Source: a virus
Length of the DNA stretch: 21,488 nt
Virus record (IMG/VR): IMGVR_UViG_3300044613_001740
Coordinates: 1 to 21,488 of that record
Direction: 5' to 3' (one strand)
Made by a program: the position numbers and the translations under genes. Below are positions 1,220-21,220 of the stretch, piece by piece (position 1 is the stretch's first letter; every line of letters begins with the position of its first letter). The notes below the pieces were generated by a model. That model was given only the letters and a program-made list of their open reading frames with translations, did not search any database and was not told the origin of the DNA.

Positions 1220-2221
1220 TTAATTTTGTAATCTAAATACAACTTGAACAGCATAAAAATCAGAGTCATTTGTATTTTTGTTCAAATATAAAGAAATTCT
1301 ATCATTTGCTGAAAATGCTCCACTTACAGCTCCAAATGTAAATACAACATTTGTACCGGGAGCACCCATTGCTTGAGTTTTAGTATTTGAGGATACACCA
1401 TTTTTATATAATTCTATATCAAAATCATCAGTAGTTGCATTTGGATTTTCAGGAGATACATAAATTTTTTCAATAAATCCATTTGTTGGAGCAGTCCAAA
1501 CTCCCATCGATGCGTCTATTGGCATCAAGTCAGTAGTAGAACTCCAAGGTAAACTACCTTGTGTTAGTGATTTAAAATCAACATAAGTTTGTATAGGAGT
1601 TACAATTCCTTGAGCAACATTAAAACTTCCGGTAATATTAAGATTACCAAGCATAACAACATTAGGCCCAATTCTTAAAGTATTAGTTGGTCCTGGTGAT
1701 ATAAATCTACCAATTGAATATCCATCCGTATAAAAATTAGATAATCTAATAGCCGATTTTGTTTCACCAGTATCTCCAGAAAAAAGTATTCCTTCATTTG
1801 AATCTGCAGTTATTCCTATACGACTTGATGAGTTGGATGAACTCCCACTTATGGATACAAATCCATTTAAACCAACTGAACCTGTTGAATGAAATACACC
1901 ATCTAATACTAAAATACGAGTGGGGGTTCCTGAACCTGATAATTTAAAATTAGGTGAACCTTGAATAGTATTAGAATCACTAAAGAATGCAATTTGAGTG
2001 TTAGATGGCGTTCCGGTTGTATCAACATAACCAGCTCCTTCTAAAGCAGCAATGTCACTTGCGATAGAACTTGAGAATGTAGTAAATCCTGTGGTTGAAC
2101 TAATTACTACTTGTGCGGATGATGTAATAACACCATCACCGATGGTTCTTAAATAGACACCATCATTATTTAATTGAGAGACATTACTGCCACTAACTAT
2201 GACTTTTTTCCAATTCGGCAT
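1220..2221 (-). CDS. Fibre-like virion protein with C1q/jelly-roll-like C-terminus
   Basis: 333 residues. The first 20 or so residues (WKKVIVSGSNVSQLNNDG) closely match the N-terminus of the 301-residue product of 2596-3501, suggesting a shared attachment tag. Next come VITSSAQ and a short helix (SSSIASDIAALEG), also shared with the 301-residue protein. The middle is Ser/Gly-rich beta repeat. The last 120 residues, from about QTYVDF, look like a compact beta sandwich with the alternation typical of C1q/TNF-like fibre heads; this is a fold impression, not a proven family. The gene has its own upstream gap with a candidate promoter and a structured leader. Function in adsorption is inferred. 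Confidence 0.75.
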   Translation of the reverse strand: MPNWKKVIVSGSNVSQLNNDGVYLRTIGDGVITSSAQVVISSTTGFTTFSSSIASDIAALEGAGYVDTTGTPSNTQIAFFSDSNTIQGSPNFKLSGSGTPTRILVLDGVFHSTGSVGLNGFVSISGSSSNSSSRIGITADSNEGILFSGDTGETKSAIRLSNFYTDGYSIGRFISPGPTNTLRIGPNVVMLGNLNITGSFNVAQGIVTPIQTYVDFKSLTQGSLPWSSTTDLMPIDASMGVWTAPTNGFIEKIYVSPENPNATTDDFDIELYKNGVSSNTKTQAMGAPGTNVVFTFGAVSGAFSANDRISLYLNKNTNDSDFYAVQVVFRLQN

Positions 2222-2239
2222 ACTTTACATCCATCATTG

Positions 2240-2286
2240 TGGTTGGTAACACTTTCGTGCCCACTTCCCGTTAGGGCCTACAACCA
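2240..2286 (-). promoter_or_regulatory. Foldable 5' leader of the fibre gene
   Basis: On the minus strand, TGGTTG (2286-2281) pairs with CAACCA (2245-2240). The enclosed segment can form GCCC/GGGC or CCC-TAAC-GGG, plus CAC-GAAA-GTG with a GNRA-type loop, giving a three-way-junction-like fold 20 to 65 nt upstream of the start codon. No known riboswitch or ribozyme class was recognised. Confidence 0.35.
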
Positions 2287-2309
2287 GAGTTTAACTTGAA
2301 TATTCGTTA

Positions 2310-2317
2310 TATAAATA
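2310..2317 (-). promoter_or_regulatory. Candidate late promoter element
   Basis: TATTTATA on the coding strand (TATAAATA on plus), 88 nt before the start of the 333-residue fibre gene and just downstream of the terminator at 2327-2356. It is one of five exact copies, all in gaps between minus-strand genes. Confidence 0.45.
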
Positions 2318-2326
2318 GTTTTATAG

Positions 2327-2356
2327 AAATAAAAAACCCCACCTTTTGGCGGGGTT
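2327..2356 (-). terminator. Rho-independent terminator after the 65-residue gene
   Basis: On the minus strand, AACCCCGCC-AAAA-GGTGGGGTT forms a 9-bp stem (one G-T wobble) followed by a TTTTTTATTT run. On the plus strand the same position is an A-C mismatch, which supports minus-strand use. It lies about 20 nt after the stop at 2376. Confidence 0.85.
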
Positions 2357-2375
2357 CTTTTATCAGTTAAAAAGA

Positions 2376-2573
2376 TTATTGTAACTTTCGTAACTCATCT
2401 TGTAACTTTACGGCTAGTTTAAAAACAGATTCGACTTGCTTTCCTTTAAAAGTAGCCTCACCCAATCCTATAATAAGAGCCTCAAGTTCACCTTTAGTTA
2501 ATTTGAGGGTTGCTTCATTTGGATTGTTGGTTGGTTCTTCTTTTTTTAAACCTAACTTTTGTGCTAATCCCAT
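2376..2573 (-). CDS. Small conserved hypothetical phage protein
   Basis: 65 residues: a lysine-rich N-terminus (MGLAQKLGLKKEEP) and a helical C-terminal half (LTKGELEALIIGLGEATFKGKQVESVFKL in outline, ending in a charged helix). No enzymatic motif is visible. It sits between two fibre-like genes and is directly followed by a terminator, so it closes the transcript from the upstream fibre gene. Its start lies 22 nt after the stop of the 301-residue gene, with no clear Shine-Dalgarno sequence. Function unknown; a fibre-assembly helper is possible but unsupported. Confidence 0.7.
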   Translation of the reverse strand: MGLAQKLGLKKEEPTNNPNEATLKLTKGELEALIIGLGEATFKGKQVESVFKLAVKLQDELRKLQ

Positions 2574-2595
2574 ATGTAAATAATTTTAGTTATTA

Positions 2596-3501
2596 TTATA
2601 CATAAATGAAAATATCACCACCATCAATACTGATGTTACCAGCTTTAGCATAGGCAGTAGAACCAGTTGTTACAACAGCCGCAGCGTAAGCGTCAAATGT
2701 TACACTATTTGTTGTAGCATCGGCGCCAGCAGCGTCAAAACCAAAGCGACCTTCGGATTGGTCCCAACCAAACGCAGAACCTACACCAACAGCACTTTGT
2801 TCAATGATGATACCAGCGTCACCAGCAGCGGTAGATGAACCAGAAGCCAAAAGAATAAACTTGTCTTCAACATTTAAATTAGTAGTATTTACGTTTGTAA
2901 CATTACCATCTACGAATAAATCACCAGTTAAAGTTAAATTTGTAAATGTTGGCGAATCGTTAGTTCCTAAGTTGTTTATATCAACATTAACGCCGTTGAG
3001 TTTAATTTGACCTTGAGCATCACCTTCTGCTGATGATGAAATCAATGTTCCACCTGCACCAACAGAAGCCTCAAGAGCTGCAATGTCTACTGCAATTGAT
3101 GATGATACTGATGTAAACGCACCACTAATATCGGTCTTTAAAGCGTAAGATGCTGTAGCAGCTGTAAGTGTTCCAATATTAGTTTCATTGGTTGTAATAC
3201 GTCCTGCTAATCCACCGGATACTTCGGTAAATGCACCACTAATATCAGTCTTTAACGCGTAAGATGCTGTAGCGCCTGTGAGTGTTCCAATGTTAGTTGT
3301 ATTGGTTGTAATATTAGTTTCATTGGTTGTAATTCTTGTTGAGAATCCACCAGATACTTCAGTAAATGCGCCTGAAATATCAGTTGCGATTTGAGCTGAT
3401 GATGATACGATGCCTGCTCCCGTGGAGCTTACATAATTTGCGTCATTATCTAATTGGCTTATCGCCGAACCGGATACGACTACTTTTTTCCATGTTGCCA
3501 T
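2596..3501 (-). CDS. Fibre-like virion protein with internal repeats
   Basis: 301 residues. The N-terminus WKKVVVSGSAISQLDNDANYV is a paralogue of the 333-residue protein's start. It is followed by GIVSSSAQIATDISGAFTEV and repeated units of TDISGAFTEVSGG...RITTNETNIGTLTxATASYALK, which look like trimeric beta/coil fibre repeats. The C-terminal third (EDKFILLASGS, then GIIIEQS and a Gly/Ala-rich end) resembles sequences in fibre-like proteins of marine T4-like phages. The start has AAGGA 8 nt upstream. Probably a tail- or head-fibre component; assignment to a specific fibre is not possible. Confidence 0.75.
   Translation of the reverse strand: MATWKKVVVSGSAISQLDNDANYVSSTGAGIVSSSAQIATDISGAFTEVSGGFSTRITTNETNITTNTTNIGTLTGATASYALKTDISGAFTEVSGGLAGRITTNETNIGTLTAATASYALKTDISGAFTSVSSSIAVDIAALEASVGAGGTLISSSAEGDAQGQIKLNGVNVDINNLGTNDSPTFTNLTLTGDLFVDGNVTNVNTTNLNVEDKFILLASGSSTAAGDAGIIIEQSAVGVGSAFGWDQSEGRFGFDAAGADATTNSVTFDAYAAAVVTTGSTAYAKAGNISIDGGDIFIYV
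3119..3367 (-). repeat. In-frame direct repeat inside the 301-residue fibre gene
   Basis: Two long similar units, 3119-3232 (114 bp) and 3233-3367 (135 bp), each encode TDISGAF...ATASYALK-type sequence; a third partial unit starts at 3368. The longer unit carries an extra TTNTTNI insertion. Lengths are multiples of three, so copy number can change without breaking the frame. Confidence 0.8.
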
Positions 3502-3563
3502 TTTTTTTCCTTTTTTTGTGTTAACACTAGTTTATTTGATATATCAATCGAAACTTGTTTATA

Positions 3564-3582
3564 ATACCACTAAATATGGTAT
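3564..3582. other. Inverted repeat in the gap before the 301-residue gene
   Basis: ATACCA ... TGGTAT with a 7-base loop in the 102-bp gap 3502-3603, next to an A/T tract. On the plus strand it is followed by a T run; on the minus strand it is preceded by A residues. It could be a weak terminator or leader hairpin. The rest of the gap shows no gene. Confidence 0.35.
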
Positions 3583-3603
3583 ATTTTTTTTAAAATTTAT
3601 TTA

Positions 3604-4302
3604 TTATTCAATTCCAAAATAAAAATTTGAAGATGAATAAAATATACCACCAGCAATGGGTGATGGGGTTATACTACTATCTGAAAGAACAATCTTTGAG
3701 CCACTAAATGCAGATGCAGTTATAGCGTTAGTTGTTACAGAACCCAAGTCAGTAGTTTGTTGTAAATTAATACCACCAAATCCAGCAGCAGCTACAGATG
3801 CTGATATAAATGTTGGACTAATATACGAAGCAGTCACAGCACTCAACACACTCATTGATGATGTTTGAGATACTAATATATATGAACTTGTTTCTTGAGT
3901 TAAATTGTCAACTTGTGTTTGGATTGATGATGTAAATATGTTTAAAACAAAAAGTTGATTAGAACTACTAATAGTTCCCGGAGGAACAGTGCCTGATACT
4001 GCGGCTTGAACTTGGCCAGATAACGTATTTACACTACTTTCAAGAAAGGTTAACTCCGTAGAAATAGATTGTGAATACGATGGAAATGTAACTTCTCTAA
4101 AATTTGTATTTGCTATAATACTATTTTTTTGAAATACAGATATTGTTATTGGCTTATTTTGTAAGCTTATGTAATCTACTTGCGTAGAAGATGATATTAA
4201 TCCAACCGGCAATTGCGCTGAAGATGAAATTACACCATTGGTTGATGTTAAGTCCCCTGTAAATGAACCGCTAAATGATCCCGTGTAATCAAACAATGAC
4301 AT
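3604..4302 (-). CDS. Fibre-like virion protein
   Basis: 232 residues. Begins MSLFDYTGSFSGSFTGDLTS and continues VISSSAQLPVGLISSSTQVDY, carrying the ISSSAQ-type motif seen in the two neighbouring fibre genes. The middle is predicted coil/beta (LTFLESSVNTLSGQ, SSIQTQVDNLTQETSSYI). The C-terminus (GGIFYSSSNFYFGIE) is a short beta end. GGAG lies 9 nt upstream of the ATG, and a candidate promoter octamer lies 33 nt upstream. Probably a short fibre or fibre-base subunit; no enzymatic function is visible. Confidence 0.7.
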   Translation of the reverse strand: MSLFDYTGSFSGSFTGDLTSTNGVISSSAQLPVGLISSSTQVDYISLQNKPITISVFQKNSIIANTNFREVTFPSYSQSISTELTFLESSVNTLSGQVQAAVSGTVPPGTISSSNQLFVLNIFTSSIQTQVDNLTQETSSYILVSQTSSMSVLSAVTASYISPTFISASVAAAGFGGINLQQTTDLGSVTTNAITASAFSGSKIVLSDSSITPSPIAGGIFYSSSNFYFGIE

Positions 4303-4335
4303 TAAATTCTCCGATATTAATATGGTGTCTCAATA

Positions 4336-4343
4336 TATAAATA
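4336..4343 (-). promoter_or_regulatory. Candidate late promoter element
   Basis: Exact TATTTATA on the coding strand in the 59-bp gap between the PhoH-like gene and the 232-residue fibre gene, 33 nt before the start codon. Confidence 0.45.
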
Positions 4344-4361
4344 GTGATATTTAATTTGAAG

Positions 4362-5027
4362 TTATTGATATGAATATAATAATTTCAAAACATCATCCAA
4401 AGCCTCATGCCGATGATTATCTTTAAGTGTTACATTATATACATATCTTGAATCTTTAATTTTCGGAACTTCATGAATCGCAGAATCATTTGAGAATTTT
4501 AAATCAATTTGTTGAGGGTCGCCTGTTAAAATCATTCGAGAACCTTTACCTAACCTACCAAGAACCATTGCAAGTTGTTGTTTTGTTAAATTTTGGAATT
4601 CATCAACAATACAAATAGCATTATCAAACGTTCTACCTCTAAAATGTGTTAATGATACCAACTCAATGTTTTGTTCTTTTTCTAACTTTTCTAAAATAAT
4701 AGGTTTGTCATAAACCTTTCTCATATTTGAACGAATTGGAACTAACCATGGTTCTAATTTTTCTTCTAATGAGCCAGGAAGAAATCCGTTGTCTTCATTT
4801 GATACAGTAGGTCGTGTAATTATGATTTTATTGATTTCTCTTTTAAAATATACATCCAATGCTATTTGAACTGCTAATAAGGTTTTACCACTACCTGCTT
4901 TTCCTAATATAAAATTAAATGGGTGTTTAAGAATTTCTGATTTTGCAACTTTTTGTTCTTCTGATAACGATATTGAAAATTTAATATCACTTTTTGGTGT
5001 TCTTTTTTCTACATTTTCCATAGCCAT
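4362..5027 (-). CDS. phoH: PhoH-like ATPase
   Basis: 221 residues, a near-complete PhoH domain. Walker A is GKAGSGKT at 42-49, Walker B is ICIVDE at 138-143, and ILTGDPQQ at about 166-173 is the conserved sensor/loop. TRPTVSNEDNGFLPG after the first strand is also typical. PhoH-family proteins are P-loop NTPases related to the helicase core and are common in marine T4-like phages, but their phage role is unsettled. Placement just after the capsid gene, behind its terminator and with its own promoter-like octamer, suggests separate control. ATG 5027 or ATG 5021 could be used. Confidence 0.95.
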   Translation of the reverse strand: MAMENVEKRTPKSDIKFSISLSEEQKVAKSEILKHPFNFILGKAGSGKTLLAVQIALDVYFKREINKIIITRPTVSNEDNGFLPGSLEEKLEPWLVPIRSNMRKVYDKPIILEKLEKEQNIELVSLTHFRGRTFDNAICIVDEFQNLTKQQLAMVLGRLGKGSRMILTGDPQQIDLKFSNDSAIHEVPKIKDSRYVYNVTLKDNHRHEALDDVLKLLYSYQ

Positions 5028-5130: not shown

Positions 5131-6771
5131 TTAAGAAAAGATTTCCAAACCATGAACGAATACTTTACCGTAGAATTCTCCACGAACCATTTGTTTTGCG
5201 TAACGAGTCATTACACCTTTTCTTGGTTGGAAGTTTTTCGGGTCGTATACTAACGGAGTCATAATCAACGGAATGTAAGGAGCGTAAACAGCACCAGTTT
5301 CCAAGAATTGTGAACCTTTGAAGCCCATAAGGATTACATTTTCCTGCATATATGGGTTCTTGTAAACAGTGTAGCGGTTAGCGAATGAACCTACTTGAGA
5401 TACACCCATTGCGAACTGCATTTCGTTACCAGTACCAGAGGCTGCGAATCCAGGAATTGATTCCAAGATTGTAGCAACATCAGGAGAAACTACCATAAAG
5501 TTAGCTCCACCTCTCATAGTTTTGGTATGAATTTGGTTAGAAACTCTCTGAATTGCAGTGCCTAATGTTTGGAACCACTGCTGTTGAGTGTAACGCTCAA
5601 TTGCGGCGTTTACACCACTTGAAGAGAAACTACTACCGTTCCAAGAGAAACCGATACGAGCTGACCAATAACCTTCAGTTAAAGCGTTTTCCATCAACAT
5701 ATCTAAGATTTCGAGGTCGATTTCTTGAGAGATATACTCTGACAACATTGAAGTCAATTCAGCTTCAGCATCGATTGAGTGGTAAGCGTTCAAATCTTGA
5801 GCGAATTCAGGAGTCCATTGTGCCTTTAACTTACGAGTCTTAGCAACGATTGGTACAGAGCGAAGCTCTACGTTCAATTCAGGAATACCTAAATCAGTTT
5901 CAGGGTTTTGACCAAAACCAGCAGCAGTTTGTTCGAAGTCACCACGAGTGATGTCAGTCGGTTGCTTTTGGTATCTTACAACGTAGTTAGTTACTAAATA
6001 AGCAGCACCAATAGAACCAGCAGCTCTTACTACGAAACGAACATTAGAACCAACAATTTTAGTGTATTGTGGGTAGTAATCAAGAATACCTGAACCAGAG
6101 ATTGAAAATGCTCTAACACCTTCAGTATCAAGAGATGTGAGTGATGACACAGGAACTGATACAGTTGAAAGGTTAAAGTTAGCAGTTGTAGCAGATGCAG
6201 AGAATACGGTATCGTAATCTACAATAGCTAAACCAGCAGCACTACCAAGGTCGATTGACGCAGATGTGTGGTTAGTCAATGTAGCAGTAGCCACATCGTT
6301 GATAGAGTAACCAAAACGACCAGCACCATAAAGACCACCTGAAGCTTGGTCTGCAGTTTCGGTAACACCGAATACAGAGTCAGATTGTGAATCTTTACCA
6401 GCACCAGTAGTGAAACCTGGCTGAGCCGTACCATACTTGAAATCCAAGTAGAATACAAGACCCGAAGGTAAGTTCATTGGTTGAACAGAGACGAATTCTT
6501 TTGCAGCGATTTCGCTGAAAATGCGTCTTACGAGAGGAAGAGCGACACCAGCCCACTCTTCGGAGTTTGCAGAAGTACCAGTAGCAGAAGCTTCAGATAC
6601 TAACTGACGTGCTTGGTTTTCCAACAATGTAGCGATTCCAGCTCTTTCGAAGTCGGTACTAGTACCTTCCAAAAGACCTGTCGGTTCCCATTTAGAAACG
6701 AGTCCTTTAGACTCTTCGCTCATTTTTTTGTTGAAACCAGCAGATTCATTTAATAGAGAATTTGTGTTCAT
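5131..6771 (-). CDS. 23: Major capsid protein, gp23-like
   Basis: 546 residues, compared with about 521 for T4 gp23. It carries the typical N-terminal region (FERAGIATLLENQARQLVSEA, in two blocks here) and a C-terminal half rich in conserved T4-like capsid motifs (LKAQWTPEFAQDLNAYH, EYISQEIDLEIL, GANFMVVSP). In T4 about 65 N-terminal residues are removed by gp21; here the VSE/A step at Glu60-Ala61 is the obvious equivalent. It lies directly after the scaffold gene, as in T4. AAGGA precedes the start. Base composition is visibly less AT-rich than the neighbours, as expected for a very highly expressed gene. No separate gp24-like vertex gene is seen. Confidence 0.97.
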   Translation of the reverse strand: MNTNSLLNESAGFNKKMSEESKGLVSKWEPTGLLEGTSTDFERAGIATLLENQARQLVSEASATGTSANSEEWAGVALPLVRRIFSEIAAKEFVSVQPMNLPSGLVFYLDFKYGTAQPGFTTGAGKDSQSDSVFGVTETADQASGGLYGAGRFGYSINDVATATLTNHTSASIDLGSAAGLAIVDYDTVFSASATTANFNLSTVSVPVSSLTSLDTEGVRAFSISGSGILDYYPQYTKIVGSNVRFVVRAAGSIGAAYLVTNYVVRYQKQPTDITRGDFEQTAAGFGQNPETDLGIPELNVELRSVPIVAKTRKLKAQWTPEFAQDLNAYHSIDAEAELTSMLSEYISQEIDLEILDMLMENALTEGYWSARIGFSWNGSSFSSSGVNAAIERYTQQQWFQTLGTAIQRVSNQIHTKTMRGGANFMVVSPDVATILESIPGFAASGTGNEMQFAMGVSQVGSFANRYTVYKNPYMQENVILMGFKGSQFLETGAVYAPYIPLIMTPLVYDPKNFQPRKGVMTRYAKQMVRGEFYGKVFVHGLEIFS

Positions 6772-6802: not shown

Positions 6803-7783
6803 TTACTTAATTAAACCAGCTAACTTCTTAAATCTATTAGCCACTTGAGTTCCTTCAGAAATAATTGATTTCTTCGGAGCACTTGACTTTGTAGGTTTAG
6901 AAGCGAGTGATTCTTTTACAATAGTTTTAGGTTTTTTAGCAACATTCAAGTTTTCACCCAATGTAGCGTAAACCAATTTTACTTCTCTTAAAGATGCAGC
7001 TCTATCGAAATTTTCGATAACTTTCATCTTTTGACCTTCGTTGAGGTCGAAAGTTCTGAACAACTTGTTAGTGTAAAGAAGTTTTGCATTTAACAAATTT
7101 ACTTCGTTAATAGTTTTTTTCAAAGATTCAATAACTTGATAAGCTTCTTCAAGCGCATCATTATTTTCTTCTTCTTTCATTTCTTCTTCAGACATTTCTT
7201 CATCATCAGCCATTTCTTTTAAGGTTCTGATAATTTCGTTAATATCTAATTCTTCCTCTTCTTCGGTCATTTCGTCTGAATCGTAAGCCTCATAAGCTTC
7301 TTCATCTTTGGTCATTTCCTCGTCTTCGGCTTCTTCAGACATTTCTTCGTCATCACCCTCAAGGGCAGCTTCTAATTCAGCAATAATTGATTCAAGGTCA
7401 AGTTCGTCTTCTTCGGTGTCTTCTTCTTCGTCACCTGTTAAGTCGTAGTCTTCACCTTCTTCAGAATCCATGTCAAGTTCCATGTCAACATCCATGTTAG
7501 AATCCATGTCAGAATCCATTTCAGAATTCATTTCATCACCCATTTCAGAATCCATTTCATTAGACATCTCGTCTTTTTCCATTTCGGTCGTTGTAGCAGC
7601 CATTTCCTCTTCTTCTTCAGTCATCTCTTCGTCATCTTCTAACTCTTCAGCAAGTTTATGAGAAAGCATTGATTGTAGTTTTGGAGCAAAAGCTTCTTCA
7701 AGAGCCATTTTAGCGTTAGCTAATGCAGTTTCTTTAACAGCTTTAGCATCAGCGATTGCTTCTTTTAACAAATCTGATTTCAT
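6803..7783 (-). CDS. 22: Prohead core scaffolding protein, gp22-like
   Basis: 326 residues. The N-terminal helix (MKSDLLKEAIADAKAVKET) and the C-terminal helical region (EEAYQVIESLKKTINEVNLL, then a segment with LYTNKLFRTFDLNEGQKM) are typical of gp22-like scaffolds. The centre is an extreme acidic stretch of Glu/Asp/Met (runs of EMDSEM and EEEE). It sits immediately before gp23. In T4, gp22 forms the inner core and is degraded to peptides by gp21; LKE/A at residue 8 and the INE tripeptides are candidate cuts. AGGAG lies 7 nt before the ATG. Larger than T4 gp22 (about 269 residues) because of the acidic expansion. Confidence 0.93.
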   Translation of the reverse strand: MKSDLLKEAIADAKAVKETALANAKMALEEAFAPKLQSMLSHKLAEELEDDEEMTEEEEEMAATTTEMEKDEMSNEMDSEMGDEMNSEMDSDMDSNMDVDMELDMDSEEGEDYDLTGDEEEDTEEDELDLESIIAELEAALEGDDEEMSEEAEDEEMTKDEEAYEAYDSDEMTEEEEELDINEIIRTLKEMADDEEMSEEEMKEEENNDALEEAYQVIESLKKTINEVNLLNAKLLYTNKLFRTFDLNEGQKMKVIENFDRAASLREVKLVYATLGENLNVAKKPKTIVKESLASKPTKSSAPKKSIISEGTQVANRFKKLAGLIK

Positions 7784-8239: not shown

Positions 8240-8626
8240 TTAATATATAGGCCCTCTATTTCCTTTTTTCATAGAAATTGCCCATTTTTGTAACATTTTT
8301 TTTATATCAGATGGAAGTTGTTTATCATGAATTTTTATATCACCATTATTACTAATGTGTGCAATGGTTTTATAAGAATCGTTTTCTTCTTCGGCTCTAT
8401 TCCAAACAGTTAACCCATTACCCATATATCCAGAACCAATATCATATTTTTTACCTTCATATATATTTGATTCCGTTAAAATATCCAATCCATCTTTAAA
8501 GTCAGACATTAAGTTACCCAATTGTCTTTGTTTTGATGGTGAAATTTTTTTTATTCTATTCAAGTTTTTTTTAATTAAACTACTAAACTCGAAAGAAATG
8601 CTTTGTATAATGTCATTTTCGTTCAT
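8240..8626 (-). CDS. Conserved hypothetical protein in the prohead core cluster
   Basis: 128 residues. The first half is helical and charged (SFEFSSLIKKNLNRIKKISP). The second half begins YDIGSGYMGNGLTVWNRAEE and continues with IAHISNNGDIKIHDKQLP, a compact alpha/beta module of the sort that recurs in T4-like phage virion proteins. The start codon overlaps the stop of the 553-residue gene as TAATG, implying translational coupling. No catalytic motif. Its place in the gp21-to-gp22 interval suggests a core or internal head protein, but this is inference. Confidence 0.75.
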   Translation of the reverse strand: MNENDIIQSISFEFSSLIKKNLNRIKKISPSKQRQLGNLMSDFKDGLDILTESNIYEGKKYDIGSGYMGNGLTVWNRAEEENDSYKTIAHISNNGDIKIHDKQLPSDIKKMLQKWAISMKKGNRGPIY

Positions 8627-10287
8627 TACTTACCCATTAAAGTTTTTAACAACATTGAAGTTTTATTAATTTTTGACTCAACAAGTTTAAGTTCATTGGG
8701 AGCGTGTTTCATTACATCACCATTTGGTAATTCTATGTTGTAGTATTTTTCATCATCAGCACCATCTTCTTTGTCTAATGATTTAACAACACCAACACCG
8801 CCATGAGACATTTCTACTTTATCACCAACTTTAAAGTGAGATTCGTTTACTGATTCATAAAAAAGATTAGACATCATATCTTTAAGTTTTGGATTTCTAA
8901 AATCACCCTTAAACTTTTCTAATGCTCTTTTTGCTTTTAATGCATTTTTAACAGAAACTACAAAGTATCCAGATTGAACACCACCTTTTTTCTTAGCTGC
9001 TAACATAACTTGTGTTCTTTCACCAGCTCCCATTTGATTACCCATTGGGTCAATTATGGTGTATTTTTCTTCGTTTAGTGATGAAACTGATTCTTTCACA
9101 TATTTCATAGATGAATTAGAACCATCGGTAAAGAATACATTCTCACCATCAATCATTTTTACTTTTCTTTTGAATGGTCCTTTTTTACCTAAAGCTGCTT
9201 CCCAATGAGGGTTATTAACAACCTTAACCATTTTACCAACTTCAATTTCTTCGTTTACTGATTCAAATTTCATATCTTTTGATTGTCCCGGTCTAGCACT
9301 ATGTGTATTGAATAGAACATATTTACCATTATCCAAAATAACAGCAAATCCAAAATCACTATCATACGCCACATTTGTAACTTTTCTACCCTTCATTATG
9401 TAATTAAGGTTTTTATTATCACTAAATACTTCGTTTACTGATTCAAGTTTTAAATTTCTTTGTGCATTAACTAATCCATTAATAATAGATTTTAAACCAC
9501 CTTTAACTCCATCAGTATCTTTAGCTTGAACTCTTTTATCCAAAATTTTGGTGTTCATCTTTAAGAAGTTGATGATTGCGTTTTCAACAGCGTTCCACTT
9601 AATTTCTTCTTCGTTTACTGATTCATCTTTTTTTGCTCTCAATGCAGCCAAGTCAGATGCTTCAATTTCACCATCACCATCAACATCAAGTTTGTGTTGG
9701 TCACCTTTAAGTTCTTCTCTTTTTAACAAAGAAGTTAACTTCATAGATTCGTTAGCAAACTTTTTAGCATTTTCTTTATCTTCAGCATCAACACCGGTTA
9801 CTTTGAATGATTTACCATCAACTTCAAATGAATCTTTATTAGCAGCAATTGCTCTAGCTCTTTCTGCTCCAAACTCATTACCTTCTTTGATTTCGTAATA
9901 TTTACCAAGAACTTCTCCAATTTCATCATAAGCTGATTCTAATCGTTGTTGCAATTGAACTACTTCGTTTATAGAATTTGAGAATACTTTGTAAGATTCG
10001 TTCATTGATTTCATATGTCTTTGAACAGTTACTCTATCAAACCAATCACCAGTTTCTTTAATAGTTAAAGAGCTTGCGCTTTCAACAATATTTTTGATAT
10101 TTTCGTGAATTTCAGACAAATTTCCTTTGTGAGAAATCATTTCACCTAGCTGATGATATGAAGCAACGGCTTCAAGAAATGCTCGTTTTTCTTCGTTGGT
10201 CATTCCTTTTTCATTCTCTTTCTCACCGATGTTCATTCTACGGTAGTCGAGATTTTGAGATTCTTTAATTAAGTTTTTTAATTTCAT
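8626..10287 (-). CDS. Modular ESVNE-punctuated protein, putative prohead-core polyprotein (short form)
   Basis: 553 residues. Begins MKLKNLIKE, short and ending in I-x-E like a capsid-targeting leader. Modules in order: helical region 10-108 ending SINE; helix to 135 (IKE); EGNEF module 136 to about 185 (FEVDGKSFKVTG); an EF-hand/dockerin-like loop DVDGDGEIEASD at 201-212; then segments ending at Glu226, Glu286, Glu346, Glu406 and Glu482, each closed by ESVNE or ESVSSLNE. The segments 227-286, 287-346 and 347-406 are each exactly 60 residues, without obvious mutual similarity. Residues 347-406 and 483-553 look like small KOW/SH3-type barrels (VGKMVKVV, VGDKVEMSHGGVGVV). ATGA overlap with gp21 implies coupled expression with the protease. 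GGAG precedes the start. Function inferred: processed internal head proteins. Confidence 0.85.
   Translation of the reverse strand: MKLKNLIKESQNLDYRRMNIGEKENEKGMTNEEKRAFLEAVASYHQLGEMISHKGNLSEIHENIKNIVESASSLTIKETGDWFDRVTVQRHMKSMNESYKVFSNSINEVVQLQQRLESAYDEIGEVLGKYYEIKEGNEFGAERARAIAANKDSFEVDGKSFKVTGVDAEDKENAKKFANESMKLTSLLKREELKGDQHKLDVDGDGEIEASDLAALRAKKDESVNEEEIKWNAVENAIINFLKMNTKILDKRVQAKDTDGVKGGLKSIINGLVNAQRNLKLESVNEVFSDNKNLNYIMKGRKVTNVAYDSDFGFAVILDNGKYVLFNTHSARPGQSKDMKFESVNEEIEVGKMVKVVNNPHWEAALGKKGPFKRKVKMIDGENVFFTDGSNSSMKYVKESVSSLNEEKYTIIDPMGNQMGAGERTQVMLAAKKKGGVQSGYFVVSVKNALKAKRALEKFKGDFRNPKLKDMMSNLFYESVNESHFKVGDKVEMSHGGVGVVKSLDKEDGADDEKYYNIELPNGDVMKHAPNELKLVESKINKTSMLLKTLMGK
8842..9624 (-). 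repeat. ESVNE-encoding 15-bp joints, short polyprotein
   Basis: Exact GAATCAGTAAACGAA (coding strand) at plus positions 8842-8856, 9250-9264, 9430-9444 and 9610-9624, plus an expanded version at 9070-9093 (ESVSSLNE). The start points 9070, 9250, 9430 and 9610 are exactly 180 bp apart. The codons are identical in all exact copies, including AAC for Asn in an AT-rich genome. Confidence 0.92.
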
Positions 10288-10928
10288 GATTTTACTCCAA
10301 AGTCACATTCACAATATCCACCAACTTCACAAATAATGTCTCTCATGATTGTGTTGGCTTTTATGTATTTATAAGTATTTAATTTTTTAGTAACACCTTC
10401 TTTGATGATACCTTCATTTGTTGGCGATAAGAAAGCGCCATGGGTAGATGGGTTAGAGACAAAATCCCAGCAAATCAAATCAAAATCATTTTCAACTGCT
10501 ACAGTATCTTCGCCAATTTGTTTTACTGACCCCATACCTCTTGATGAGATACCAACAGTACATCCCGCTTTAATAATTTCTTTAAGAATATTTCCAGCTG
10601 GAGTATTTAATATTTCAACCGTACCTACAACATCATCACCATTCCAATATACTTCACGAACAATATGCGATGTGTTTTTTAATTCTACAACAGCAGATTC
10701 AGGATGGTCTAATTCACCATATGCACGATTTTGTTTAATTTCTCTACCTTTGTATTTTTCAACTTCTCTTTCAAGAATGTTTTTAGGATATACTCTACCA
10801 TTTTGGTTTTTAGCGTTTGCTCTTTGCAATACACCCTTTACCAAAAAACGACCTGACTTATCCTCAGCCTCTTTAAGCATAGTCGGTGTTACTTCAAACA
10901 CCATTACATCCATGAGTAATTGCTTCAT
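10284..10928 (-). CDS. 21: Prohead core protease, gp21-like
   Basis: 214 residues from ATG 10928. Herpesvirus-assemblin-like serine protease of T4 prohead type: RANAKNQNGRVYP near the N-terminus, the GELDHPES box with catalytic His75, and GISSRGMGS with the nucleophile at Ser128 or Ser129, followed by FDLICWDFVSNPSTHGA. In T4 this enzyme digests the scaffold and trims head proteins after hydrophobic-x-Glu. The C-terminal tail contains IIKE/G at Glu177, a possible self-cleavage point. I preferred the ATG overlapping the upstream stop (TAATG, GGGAG upstream) over an in-frame TTG at 10940. The downstream polyprotein overlaps by 4 nt. Confidence 0.95.
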   Translation of the reverse strand: MKQLLMDVMVFEVTPTMLKEAEDKSGRFLVKGVLQRANAKNQNGRVYPKNILEREVEKYKGREIKQNRAYGELDHPESAVVELKNTSHIVREVYWNGDDVVGTVEILNTPAGNILKEIIKAGCTVGISSRGMGSVKQIGEDTVAVENDFDLICWDFVSNPSTHGAFLSPTNEGIIKEGVTKKLNTYKYIKANTIMRDIICEVGGYCECDFGVKS

Positions 10929-11068
10929 TATTTCTCCCAAACTTGTCTTTTACGGTATAAATCAAAAAAAATTCGTGCTATTTCTCTACGAATCATTAAT
11001 CTGATAGTCTCAAGGTCATTAACCTCAAGAGACTCATTAATATTTTTTTTGTTACAACCACAACCCAT
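10928..11068 (-). CDS. Small protein between core genes and the protease
   Basis: 46 residues: starts MGCGCNKKNINESLEV, then a helix (LETIRLMIRREIARIFFDLY) and a basic end RKRQVWEK. It fits tightly: its ATG is 1 nt after the stop of the 166-residue gene, and its stop overlaps the gp21 ATG as TAATG, which supports it as real. It carries two Cys in CGC and an INE/S tripeptide at residue 12 that matches the suspected protease site. Position resembles T4 gene 68, but size and sequence do not let me claim homology. Confidence 0.72.
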   Translation of the reverse strand: MGCGCNKKNINESLEVNDLETIRLMIRREIARIFFDLYRKRQVWEK

Positions 11069-11069
11069 A

Positions 11070-11570
11070 TTATGCACCTAATTCTTTAATGTTACGAGAA
11101 ATTTTTAACATTCTTTCAGAAATTTTTCCAAAACGAATTTTTGTTGATTCCCAAAAATGTCCTTGGCTTACTCCCATTTCTGTTTTTAATTTAGAATTTT
11201 GGTTTATAAGTTGTTCTACTTCGTATAATTTACGATTGATTTCTTTAATAGCCAAATTAACCTTTTTCTTGGCCGACATTGACTCATCTTTTTTGTATGC
11301 TCTATAAGTAGCCTCAATCAAACTCTCTAATTTAGATTCTAATTTAGAAACTGATTCAAAATGTTGTTTTGATTTTTTAGATTTTTTATAACCTAATACT
11401 TCAATATGGTCATTGTCCATATCATCTTCACTTTTAGCAAAAGCTCGTGGAGTTCTTGGTGGACCAGCACCACCATCAAGGTTTGCTGTTACATTTGCTT
11501 CTTCAATTTCTTTTTCGGATTCCAATTGTTTAAATTTAGATTCCAATTGTTCCATTAAAAATTTAGACAT
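11070..11570 (-). CDS. Coiled-coil protein, putative prohead core component
   Basis: 166 residues. Starts MSKFLMEQLESKFKQLESEK, then a conserved loop TANLDGGAGPPRTPRAFA, then long charged helices (FESVSKLESKLESLIEATYR; YEVEQLINQNSKL) to the end. High Lys/Glu content and predicted coiled coil fit a core or scaffold partner. It lies between gp20 and gp21, where T4 encodes the small core proteins gp67 and gp68. No sequence match to them can be claimed by eye. One nucleotide separates it from the upstream stop. Confidence 0.75.
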   Translation of the reverse strand: MSKFLMEQLESKFKQLESEKEIEEANVTANLDGGAGPPRTPRAFAKSEDDMDNDHIEVLGYKKSKKSKQHFESVSKLESKLESLIEATYRAYKKDESMSAKKKVNLAIKEINRKLYEVEQLINQNSKLKTEMGVSQGHFWESTKIRFGKISERMLKISRNIKELGA

Positions 11571-17958: not shown

Positions 17959-18696
17959 TTACCACTTTCTACAAGACCAATATCTTGCTTTCCACCTTGG
18001 ACCAGGATTATCACAATTGTGTCTAGCTCTAAATGATGCTCTTGCTTTAGGATTATTTTTACGAATTCGCATCGTTCCACCTTTAGCATCACCACCTTGA
18101 CCAAAGTTTACCTTAACAACATTACCTTTGTCATTTCTAACATATACTTTGAATTTTTTAACATCACCTTGCATAATCTTACCAAGTTTTACTTTTCTAC
18201 CTTGGTATTCTGCTTCATTGATTTGACTTTTATATTCAGCCATAAATTGAGCAAATTCTCTTAGGTCTTGGTAATTTTCTACATCATACTCGTTAACTTC
18301 ACTATAATCCGATACTGTTGAGATGTAATCTTCTGCTTTTGTAATTAGTGATTGAACCCAAGGTTCTAAATTACCCTTACCACGAAGTTTTGTAATTAAT
18401 TCTTGTGCTTTTTTAATTGATATTTCCAATTGGTCTACTGCCATGTCAGAGTCAGATTCACCACCTTCGTTTTTTTTCTCTTCAGGACTTTTACCAAATG
18501 TTTTGTGAACTAATTTATCAAGTTTAGTATGAAATTCTTTTTCTTCACTATCACTCGCTTCATTTTTAAATGAGTTAACATATGGGTTACCATACACCTT
18601 ACCTAATTCAGGAGTAAATCCATATTGAGTTTCCATAAAATTCTTTACTTTATGGTATTCTTCTTTGATTAATTTTTTAAGATTGTTAGTTTTCAT
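17959..18696 (-). CDS. Modular prohead-core-like protein with Cys/His/Trp-rich C-terminal module
   Basis: 245 residues. The leader MKTNNLKKLIKE ends in I-x-E at residue 12. A charged helical middle ends with SEVNE (Glu136) and QINE (Glu161). The last 84 residues, from AEYQGRKVKLGK, form a module: a GDVKKFKVYVRNDKGNVVKV sheet, MRIRKNNP, then SFRARHNCDNPGPRWKARYW and a terminal SCRKW with His226, Cys228 and Cys242. I recognise this C-terminal block as widespread in T4-like phage proteins, with no assigned function; the residues could bind metal. Its start is 1 nt after the stop of the 840-residue gene. Likely a processed internal or core protein. Confidence 0.78.
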   Translation of the reverse strand: MKTNNLKKLIKEEYHKVKNFMETQYGFTPELGKVYGNPYVNSFKNEASDSEEKEFHTKLDKLVHKTFGKSPEEKKNEGGESDSDMAVDQLEISIKKAQELITKLRGKGNLEPWVQSLITKAEDYISTVSDYSEVNEYDVENYQDLREFAQFMAEYKSQINEAEYQGRKVKLGKIMQGDVKKFKVYVRNDKGNVVKVNFGQGGDAKGGTMRIRKNNPKARASFRARHNCDNPGPRWKARYWSCRKW

Positions 18697-18697
18697 T

Positions 18698-21220
18698 TTA
18701 TTTCAAACCTTCCATCTTACTTCTATTTTTATAGACACCAGCTAACCACTTCATTGATTCTTTAGTTTTTGGAAAATCTTTGTATTCTTTATAAAATTGA
18801 ATTACAAAATCTTTAAAATCTTTTGCTTCTTGTGCAATAATATCAATATCACTCAATGAAGCTTCGTTTACTGATTCAAATTTGAGTTTATTAAGGTTTA
18901 TATTACCGATAGTTCTTTGGAATAAGTATCCATTTTGAAATTCAGCATGGCTTCCACCTCTAAAGAAAAACTCACCCTTACCGTATGCAGTATCCAAACT
19001 TTTTTGTATATGATTTACTATTTTGTTAGTTCCTATTTTTCTAACTGCAATACTTGCTGCCTTTTTATCCTTAAAAGAAAACAATATTTTTCCATTTGTC
19101 TCACTTATATCAAAATCTATACCTAATATATTTGCACGATTAGTATTTTCGTTTACTGATTCAACTAAATCACTTTTGTAATTTTTATTTACAAACTGAA
19201 CTAAACTTTGTGCATATTTGCCAGTAATTTTACCTACCATCTTAACTCCATTTGGAGTATGGGTATACATTTCTTGTGAACCAATTCCGGCAGTTTTTAA
19301 TACCTTACCATCCGTATTTAAGTTTCTACCTTCTAAAGGTTTTTTATCAAAAAATGCCTTAACTACTTTCGTATCGGCTGGAAGTAGAGCTTCGTTTACT
19401 GATTCTCCGATTGTGGTCACTTTCCAATAGTATCCTTTATTCTTTTCTGATGCTGATAATCTTTTATTTAGAGTTTCAACTTCTTTTTCAGCTTCTCTGT
19501 AATTTCTGTCAACCGATAATGTTTTTAAAATTTTATTTTTGTTAGGGTCAAATAATGAAATTTTAACACCTTCGTTTACTGATTCTTTCATTCCAAACTT
19601 GGAAATAATCATTTTTTGGATTTTGTTACCAGGATTCCCAACCATTGCAGTTACAAAATCCATTTTATCTGAAAGTTTACCTTTTTTTAGATATGAGTAT
19701 AGTTTTGTAGAATCTAAATTATTATCATCAATAAACTTTTGAACTCCTTCAGGTCTTGTTGCAGTTAATGAAGCAATTGCTACTGCCCATTTTGTTTGGC
19801 TTGGCACTGCTTCGTTTACGGATTCTTTAATACCACCCTTGTTGATATTTGATATCCAACCATTTTTAATGAACCAATCCATTTTTTCTTCAAATGATGG
19901 GTTAGTCTTTTTAGCCCACATATTATACTCAACTTTTTTGTTGAATTGTTTTTGATTTTTAAGAATAGCACTTACTACTTTGTCTTTGTTAGTATCACCT
20001 TTAGATACATCTTTCATACCTAACTTTGCCCAAGTTTTGTAATCTACAAAATAAGCTGAATCATCTTCTTTATAGTATCCAAAGTGAAGTTTACCTTTAC
20101 CATCAGAAAATACAGTTTTACCAACAACTGATTTAAAATCTTCGTTTACTGATGGAATTACTTCGTCTTGGTAAAGAACTTTTACATCTTTAAGATTACC
20201 ATTAAATTCACCCTTCATGGTCATAATCGTAACCGTATCACCACTAATTTTTTTTACCATTCCGGTTTTATTTGCAGATTTAAAATGAACAAAATCACCT
20301 ATTTCAAAATCACCTTTGTTGGCTTCGTTTACTTTATTTTCCATCACACCCACAGCAGTATCGCCTACTACGAAATCAGGTTTGGTTGCATATTTTTTAT
20401 TTACAATACCAACTCTATTACCACTCTTATCTTGCACTATATAAATTGGCATTGGTGATGTGGCGAAGATGTATCGTATGCCTGTTTTTTTCAACTCTGA
20501 CCCAATATTCATAAACGAAGACGCTGATTGAACTGCTGACTTAATGGCTTCCATATCCTTTGGTGAAATACGCTCATTCATTGATTTTTTCATTTTAATT
20601 ACCTCTGCAATCGTTTCATCATTTGCCTCTTTAACAGGATACATTTTTCCGTTAAATTCAAATTCGGTTAAACCTTCTTTTCGTGCGTTAAACAAAGCAC
20701 CGGTAAAAGCATTACCCTCTTTAACACTATAAATTTCTTGTTCGTTTTTCATCAAACGATTTTTTGCTAACAAAGAAAGAAACTTAATATCAGCGTCTGC
20801 AATTTGTTGTAATTCATCTTTAGGCAACTTGTCCAACATCGTAATTAAACGATTATACGCTGGACTATTTGGGTTGATTTTATTAATGTCGTTATATGCC
20901 TGCTTTAACATATCAAGGTGGGTTTTATCAAATCTTTCGCTTACTGATTCTGACTTAGTTTTCCAAGTTCCACCTTTTTCTTTATACCACTTAGATGCAA
21001 ATGCGTTAGCATATGCTGATGGGTAAACATCGTATTTAGCTTTTGCAGCTGATTTTGCTCTACTCCAAAGTGCGGGATTAGTTGGTTCGTTTTCTTCGTT
21101 CATTTCAACTGATTCAGGAACACAATTAGGAACTTCCCTACCACTTTTCATTTTCATTCCTACTTGTTTATACCCATCCCAACATGGACCATTTTCGTTT
21201 ACGAATTTTTTTTTATTCAT
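18698..21220 (-). CDS. Large modular ESVNE-punctuated protein, putative prohead-core polyprotein (long form)
   Basis: 840 residues. Candidate joints end at Glu9 (FVNE), 42 (SVEMNE), 95 (ESVSE), 299 (NKVNE), 360 (PSVNE), 470, 550, 610, 691 and 786 (all ESVNE), giving segments of 33, 53, 204, 61, 110, 80, 60, 81, 95 and 54 residues. Modules include CWDGYKQVGMKMKSG...VPNCVP (10-42), YPSAYANAFASKWYKEKGG (43-95), an EGNAF module flanked by VKE at 168 and 198, and a KOW-like barrel (FEIGDFVHFKSANKTGMVKK, 300-360). The rest are small alpha/beta or helical units I do not recognise. No enzyme motif spans modules. Inference: gp21 cuts after the Glu residues, releasing small proteins inside the head. 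Confidence 0.85.
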   Translation of the reverse strand: MNKKKFVNENGPCWDGYKQVGMKMKSGREVPNCVPESVEMNEENEPTNPALWSRAKSAAKAKYDVYPSAYANAFASKWYKEKGGTWKTKSESVSERFDKTHLDMLKQAYNDINKINPNSPAYNRLITMLDKLPKDELQQIADADIKFLSLLAKNRLMKNEQEIYSVKEGNAFTGALFNARKEGLTEFEFNGKMYPVKEANDETIAEVIKMKKSMNERISPKDMEAIKSAVQSASSFMNIGSELKKTGIRYIFATSPMPIYIVQDKSGNRVGIVNKKYATKPDFVVGDTAVGVMENKVNEANKGDFEIGDFVHFKSANKTGMVKKISGDTVTIMTMKGEFNGNLKDVKVLYQDEVIPSVNEDFKSVVGKTVFSDGKGKLHFGYYKEDDSAYFVDYKTWAKLGMKDVSKGDTNKDKVVSAILKNQKQFNKKVEYNMWAKKTNPSFEEKMDWFIKNGWISNINKGGIKESVNEAVPSQTKWAVAIASLTATRPEGVQKFIDDNNLDSTKLYSYLKKGKLSDKMDFVTAMVGNPGNKIQKMIISKFGMKESVNEGVKISLFDPNKNKILKTLSVDRNYREAEKEVETLNKRLSASEKNKGYYWKVTTIGESVNEALLPADTKVVKAFFDKKPLEGRNLNTDGKVLKTAGIGSQEMYTHTPNGVKMVGKITGKYAQSLVQFVNKNYKSDLVESVNENTNRANILGIDFDISETNGKILFSFKDKKAASIAVRKIGTNKIVNHIQKSLDTAYGKGEFFFRGGSHAEFQNGYLFQRTIGNINLNKLKFESVNEASLSDIDIIAQEAKDFKDFVIQFYKEYKDFPKTKESMKWLAGVYKNRSKMEGLK
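18863..20950 (-). repeat. ESVNE-encoding 15-bp joints, long polyprotein
   Basis: Exact GAATCAGTAAACGAA on the coding strand at plus positions 18863-18877, 19148-19162, 19391-19405 and 19571-19585. Near copies are at 19811-19825 (one mismatch), 20141-20153 (PSVNE), 20324-20338 (NKVNE) and 20936-20950 (ESVSE). The same 15-mer occurs four times in the distant gene at 8626-10287. Confidence 0.92.

Follow-up and report, generated by a model that had tools for sequence, protein, structure and literature searches.

The window analysed here, a 21.5-kb IMG/VR virus contig, carries on its minus strand a gene (18698..21220) whose product, p840 (P0001), is best understood, with a probability that we put at roughly 0.6, as a modular internal-head polyprotein of a T4-like phage that is cut by gp21 into small, mostly basic proteins. 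A leader that resembles a capsid-targeting sequence would carry the precursor into the prohead core, where gp21 would cleave the chain behind the Glu of some 12 [VILM]-x-E joints, most of them ESVNE, yielding about 12 small, mostly basic proteins of 4–13 kDa. Most of these products would remain in the head and would probably be ejected with the DNA like the T4 internal proteins. The modules would be gained, lost and swapped among head-core genes (p840, p553, p166-like genes, p245 and others) because a nearly identical 15-bp sequence encodes the joints.

The p840 protein and its modules

The gene starts with ATG and encodes 840 amino acids, with a computed mass of 94.8 kDa and a computed pI of 9.4. 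The first-pass annotation had listed ten ESVNE-like ends (residues 9, 42, 95, 299, 360, 470, 550, 610, 691 and 786), and all of them are present, the exact pentapeptide being found only at the last five, while the others read KFVNE (9), VEMNE (42), ESVSE (95), NKVNE (299) and PSVNE (360). The count was nevertheless incomplete, since homology adds joints after residues 168 (YSVKE) and 216 (KSMNE), which brings the number in p840 to about 12 instead of 10. Composition-preserving shuffles predict 0.003 copies of ESVNE (maximum 1 in 2000 shuffles) where five are observed, and 0.36 copies of VNE where eight are observed. The caution that a bare [VIL]xE tripeptide is frequent was right, as this pattern occurs 19 times against 10.7 expected, about a twofold excess. 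A chance origin of the ESVNE joints is ruled out by the shuffles together with the excess of a joint-encoding 15-mer in the window, described below. In agreement with the first-pass annotation, a comparison of the pieces with one another revealed no convincing similarity (best self-hit E=0.011). They measure 3.7–12.7 kDa, and 8 of the 12 have a pI of 8.9–9.7, modules A, D and F being acidic to neutral.

The leader MNKKKFVNE (21194..21220, minus strand, as are all features of the window given below) resembles the T4 capsid-targeting sequence MKTYQEFIAE. Behind it lies module A (residues 10–42, GPCWDGYKQVGMK..VPNCVP; 21095..21193), which has cyanophage and IMG/VR relatives with differing neighbours; except for J, the modules that follow were recognized by homology. 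Module B (residues 43–95; 20936..21094) ends in ESVSE and has a weak DUF5872 match. Module C (residues 96–168; 20717..20935), ending in YSVKE, recurs in Rhizobium phage RHph_N46, where a 229-aa protein has it as its N-terminus, from Met1 on. In that protein (locus L001, 6013-6702; L-numbers label the related phage loci and contigs that were compared) the peptide PLKALMVE is repeated, possibly as the joint of another lineage. Next come the GNAF.. module D (residues 169–216; 20573..20716) and module E (residues 217–299; 20324..20572), which has differing partners in L009, L014, L017 and L019, those in L009, L014 and L019 being in p553-type genes. Module F (residues 300–360; 20141..20323) is weakly KOW-like and is followed by module G (residues 361–470; 19811..20140). 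Module H (residues 471–550; 19571..19810) stands near the N-terminus of a head-cluster protein of 276–289 aa in L013, L017 and L021, and module I (residues 551–610; 19391..19570) has a 93% identical copy within the p553-type gene of L009. For module J (residues 611–691; 19148..19390) a search for relatives found none. Module K (residues 692–786; 18863..19147) is inserted into the p166-like core gene in L048 and L089–L093, and the C-terminal module L (residues 787–840; 18701..18862) has no joint behind it.

The PHROG matches of p840 are families of unknown function, and the Pfam matches, to KOW (module F), DUF5872 (module B) and CarD (the last module of p553), all lie below the curated cut-offs. 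A sequence search of the PDB gave no match for p840 and no credible one for p553, and a single-sequence structure model of p840 (pLDDT 39.9) is too poor for comparing domains with joints.

Exchange of modules among relatives

Relatives were gathered by searching with p840, with p553 and with single modules, and 42 non-redundant proteins from IMG/VR with at least two joints were kept. Cutting these at their joints produced 234 segments that fall into 97 clusters, 35 of them recurring. At least two different left neighbours were found for 27 of the 35 recurring families and at least two different right neighbours for 30, with the reservation that the neighbour counts of cluster 0 are inflated, this being an over-large cluster formed by chained merging via the GN-module. 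When the joints were masked, 58% of local alignments still ended at a joint and 54% started at one; random positions gave 16%. Modules are swapped as intact units at 70–97% identity, several of them also occur in stand-alone small proteins, and a module that closes a protein lacks the trailing joint (LKLK* versus LKLESVNE). The joints are therefore real module boundaries, and the modules are evolutionarily exchangeable.

Close pairs of loci illustrate the exchange. The p166-like core genes of L089 and L093 differ by one extra 98-aa module placed exactly at a joint, with flanks that are 97.4% and 97.3% identical. Two modules that are present in L091 are missing in L090 (flanks 97.8% and 96.2% identical), and in this natural mutant (3782-4750) the joint itself is deleted too, so that two modules are left fused (..KLKFES^LDPKAQ..). 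Since L090 reads through the lost joint, not all joints are indispensable.

The joint as candidate cut site and as DNA seam

At boundaries defined by homology, without use of the motif, [VILM]xE was found in 107 of 118 cases (91%), compared with 33% of random windows; boundaries lacking a clear site occur, for example, after module B in L014 and L021 and after module C in L109. Across the joints Glu is constant at P1, P3 is hydrophobic and P2 is free (N, K, S, A, T). T4 gp21 cleaves after L/I-x-E (PMC9026906). Whereas T4 prefers L or I at P3, most joints have V at this position and the strict L/I rule is followed by a minority. The gp23-type major capsid protein of the window (5131..6771) has its predicted maturation site at QLVSE60/A (codon 6592-6594), and the capsid proteins of this phage and its relatives carry QLVSE/A, QLVKE/A or QLLDE/A aligned with FLTE65/A of T4 gp23, which makes V at P3 plausible for this clade. 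The site QLVSE/A agrees with the joints ESVNE/A/E/G/S. In a 168-kb relative the motif has eight matches, all of them within the polyprotein gene, a 276-aa gene next to it and the homologue of p553, whereas a control pattern has none. Within the modules [VIL]xE is not depleted (306 observed versus 292 expected), so specificity would need accessibility or extended context.

The joints are also conspicuous as DNA. The 15-mer GAATCAGTAAACGAA occurs in the window in 8 exact copies, and in 11 when up to two mismatches are allowed, against 0.11 expected, and all copies fall in the genes for p840 and p553. In p840 a 15-mer search located seams, exact or near copies, at 18863, 19148, 19391, 19571, 19811 and 20141 (range 18863..20155) and at 20936-20950; in p553 it located four exact ones at 8842, 9250, 9430 and 9610 (range 8842..9624). 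For 79 ESVNE joints, Val is encoded by GTA in 79/79 (genome usage 45%) and Asn by AAC in 67/79 (genome usage 40%). The commonest joint 15-mer, again GAATCAGTAAACGAA, accounts for 57% where codon usage predicts 4.4%, a comparison that yields no formal probability because the joint copies are related and non-independent. Such abnormally uniform codons indicate that each joint doubles as a seam in the DNA, and the simplest reading is that a short common seam may have been the route by which joints spread and modules were exchanged.

Head genes, neighbours and leaders

The window encodes the terminase, portal, gp21 protease, scaffold candidate and major capsid protein of a T4-like phage, and the closest cultured relatives of the capsid protein are found in Microcystis phage Mel-JY01 (58%) and Flavobacterium phages immuto (54%). 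The gene order portal, p278, p166, gp21, p553, p128, p98, scaffold candidate, major capsid protein can be set beside the order 20-67-68-21-22-23 in T4, p278/p166-gp21-p553 matching the corresponding T4 positions. The p840 gene lies outside this gp20-gp23 block, a few kb past the gene for terminase. The protease gene (10284..10940) was identified by a Peptidase_S77 match (E=1.6e-32). In an uncultured huge phage (LR756508; L055, 6481-8205) the gp21 open reading frame is split by an intein-like insert, placed between GELDHPD and SSVVNLKN beside a conserved His.

Adjoining the gp21 gene is that of a second polyprotein, p553 (8626..10287), recognized by homology and joints, which consists of the leader MKLKNLIKE, a conserved helical core domain and, behind it, modules; its joints lie at 226, 286, 346, 406 and 482, plus 135. 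Its structure model, built with 11 relatives, has a pLDDT of 45.8 and is better resolved only in q6 (~408-478, pLDDT 74–80) and in the GN-module (~140-178). Both regions of the model lie between joints, which lends weak support to joints as domain borders. A PDB fold search with the p553 model gave no significant match.

Several smaller genes share modules with these polyproteins. The C-terminal part of p128 (128 aa; 8240..8626) is, by sequence comparison, a polyprotein module in L040 and L043, and relatives of p166 (166 aa; 11070..11570), placed by its relatives and the T4 gene order as a core protein at the gp67/gp68 position, have modules inserted mid-protein. The 245-aa neighbour of p840, p245 (17959..18696; found by homology, leader MKTNNLKKLIKEE), is a gene of its own in the window, but in L014 and L021 its modules are fused into an 840-type polyprotein. 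An acidic protein with the leader MKSDLLKE (6803..7783) is, judging by its location between the genes for gp21 and gp23, a gp22-like scaffold candidate. In the scaffold-like gene of immuto (L053, 17583-18824) the GFEQWLDSVSAQMDKFGKNNPTIQAIEKAV module is tandemly duplicated behind GVNE and LEE sites, which suggests that modules may enter the scaffold gene too.

Upstream of p840, the identical phage contig L004 carries the gene of a cytidylyltransferase-like protein and that of a 240-aa protein in which a leader, MKLTELLNED, lies internally. A 961-aa open reading frame in L041 (2-2884) has joints (ESINE, ESVNE) and modules, and its C-terminal part resembles this cytidylyltransferase-like neighbour. 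Elsewhere in the window (~90-1230) a fibre protein with collagen-like Gly-x-y repeats is cut off by the contig end; directly in front of the repeats lies a Hint/intein-like stretch that ends in GQLVFHN. Three fibre-like open reading frames (1220-4302) have SGS..SQL and SSSAQ repeats in common.

The leaders of p840, p553 and gp23 (MNTNSLLNE) all resemble MKTYQEFIAE of T4 IPIII; the T4 ipII and ipIII leaders were read from NC_000866, and a 10-residue leader of this kind acts as capsid-targeting sequence in T4 (PMC9026906). The pattern M..[LI][LI]xE, with Glu mostly at position 8–12, is also found in the gp22 and gp23 proteins that these phages encode. It was present in 56 of 151 module-bearing proteins versus 60 of 391 others, the latter including gp22-like proteins and gp23, both substrates in T4. 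Leaders also occur internally: the p245 leader MKTNNLKKLIKEEYH has a counterpart, KLTKDSLKKIIKEEYH, inside the L014 protein, and the L043 protein contains MIKLRDILNE. Some joints thus look like former N-terminal leaders trapped by gene fusion.

Alternative explanations

The earlier proposal of a gp21-cut polyprotein agrees with the exchangeable modules, a gp21-type rule at the joints, the match with the capsid protein site, the leader, and a module pool common with head-core genes, although cleavage of p840 and retention of the pieces in the head are points that we infer. An unlikely alternative is that p840 is a prohead core protein that gp21 does cut at the joints, but whose pieces are expelled or degraded and have no function after maturation. 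In T4, cleavage of the core proteins does yield several fragments, most of which leave the head (PMC9026906, PMC5694885), and module-carrying genes include core-protein relatives at the gp67/68 position and beside gp21. The modules, on the other hand, are conserved, globular-looking and mostly basic (pI around 9 in 8 of 12), unlike the acidic gp22 and gp67, and their exchange as intact units together with the stand-alone forms points to modules that function as individual proteins.

We consider it rather improbable that p840 stays uncut and acts in the head as one long chain, its joints serving only as flexible linkers or recombination seams. The uniformity of the joints at the DNA level could alone spread one linker, [VIL]xE is undepleted in the modules, and one joint was lost in L090. 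Yet degenerate joints retain the hydrophobic P3 and the Glu at P1, which a mere linker does not need, and the joints match the gp23 maturation site; moreover, fusion and fission with neighbouring genes, together with the stand-alone forms, imply that covalent linkage of the modules is dispensable. Very small is the chance that p840 belongs to the tail, to DNA metabolism or to the early proteins, as a multidomain protein that shares modules with head genes fortuitously. It does lie outside the gp20-gp23 block, behind the cytidylyltransferase-like gene, but leader and modules are common to the genes flanking gp21, and a putative cyanophage cytidylyltransferase, T4-GC190, a possible counterpart of the p840 neighbour, was detected in S-SM1 virions (PMC3037559). 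Practically no weight is left for random low-complexity repeats or an assembly artefact: no points in favour were found, many relatives have a similar architecture, and an artefact of assembly is ruled out by full-length p840 being 100% identical in three other metagenome contigs and by 571 residues in a fourth.

Comparison with known systems

The T4 internal proteins IPI, IPII and IPIII (and Alt) share with p840 a short leader that ends in hydrophobic-x-Glu near residue 10; they are small, basic and variable between related phages, like the p840 pieces, and combine a common leader with unrelated bodies (PMC9026906, PMC12373910). Each of them has its own gene and is cut once near the N-terminus, Alt also losing a C-terminal piece (PMC5694885), whereas p840 has many modules behind one leader, with a predicted cut site between each. 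Homology to IPI-III or Alt was not detected, a tblastn search of the phage collection giving no T4 match.

A gp21 substrate with multiple cuts had been considered new. This holds only in part, since T4 gp22, gp67 and gp68 undergo several gp21 cuts, as predicted for p840, and yield several fragments, but these are mostly removed scaffold and not exchangeable modules (PMC9026906, PMC5694885). The T4 core scaffold is, furthermore, acidic and encoded in the block, while p840 is basic and encoded outside it, p166 and p553 being inside. In phiKZ and SPN3US many packaged proteins are matured by a gp21-like protease, a situation like the one proposed here; the enzyme cuts after S/A-x-E, and some propeptides have more than one such site (PMC5694885, PMC10052503). 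In these phages it is the propeptides that hold the additional sites, and each gene gives one mature chain, unlike p840, and no module shuffling is reported in these two papers.

The hypothetical protein T4-GC_119 of T4-like cyanophages and its relatives (S-BM3, P-SSM2) contain modules A and B, but only one or two modules each, in Synechococcus phage S-BM3 in reversed order, and with SESFSE as joint for ESVNE. A cultured relative is Flavobacterium phage vB_FspM_immuto, of which gene 191 (841 aa, hypothetical) has the joints NESVNE and KESLNE and the seam GAATCAGTAAATGAA at 115408, but mostly other modules and fewer joints than p840. No precedent for a phage polyprotein with prohead protease, or for such module exchange, was found in the open-access papers searched. 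The polyprotein reading thus has good, though indirect, support. Seen in this way, p840 would join the leader and cargo logic of the T4 internal proteins to the multi-cut logic of their core counterparts, with module exchange as an addition.

Implications

Exchangeable modules joined by peptides that resemble cut sites suggest that many small head proteins are probably loaded from one gene. A more tentative idea, to which we give somewhat less than even odds, is that of a cassette system for virion cargo. The identical 15-bp seams would then be protease site and recombination handle at once, any small gene could slot into the head-core polyproteins, and the repertoire delivered to the host could change cassette by cassette, with no need for a further promoter, start codon or targeting signal.

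Internal head proteins serve as first-wave weapons, as illustrated by T4 IP1-3, which, once injected, inhibit type IV restriction enzymes (PMC12373910); injection of the p840 modules, and a role in anti-defence or take-over, is speculative. The 97 module clusters, including the 35 recurring ones, form a catalogue of candidate injected proteins, and the joint signature can be used for finding more such proteins. If the proposed polyprotein is real, one targeting signal would suffice to load a dozen distinct proteins with a fixed stoichiometry, a natural design for packing several proteins into phage heads, and the repertoires would evolve through cassette exchange at the protease site.
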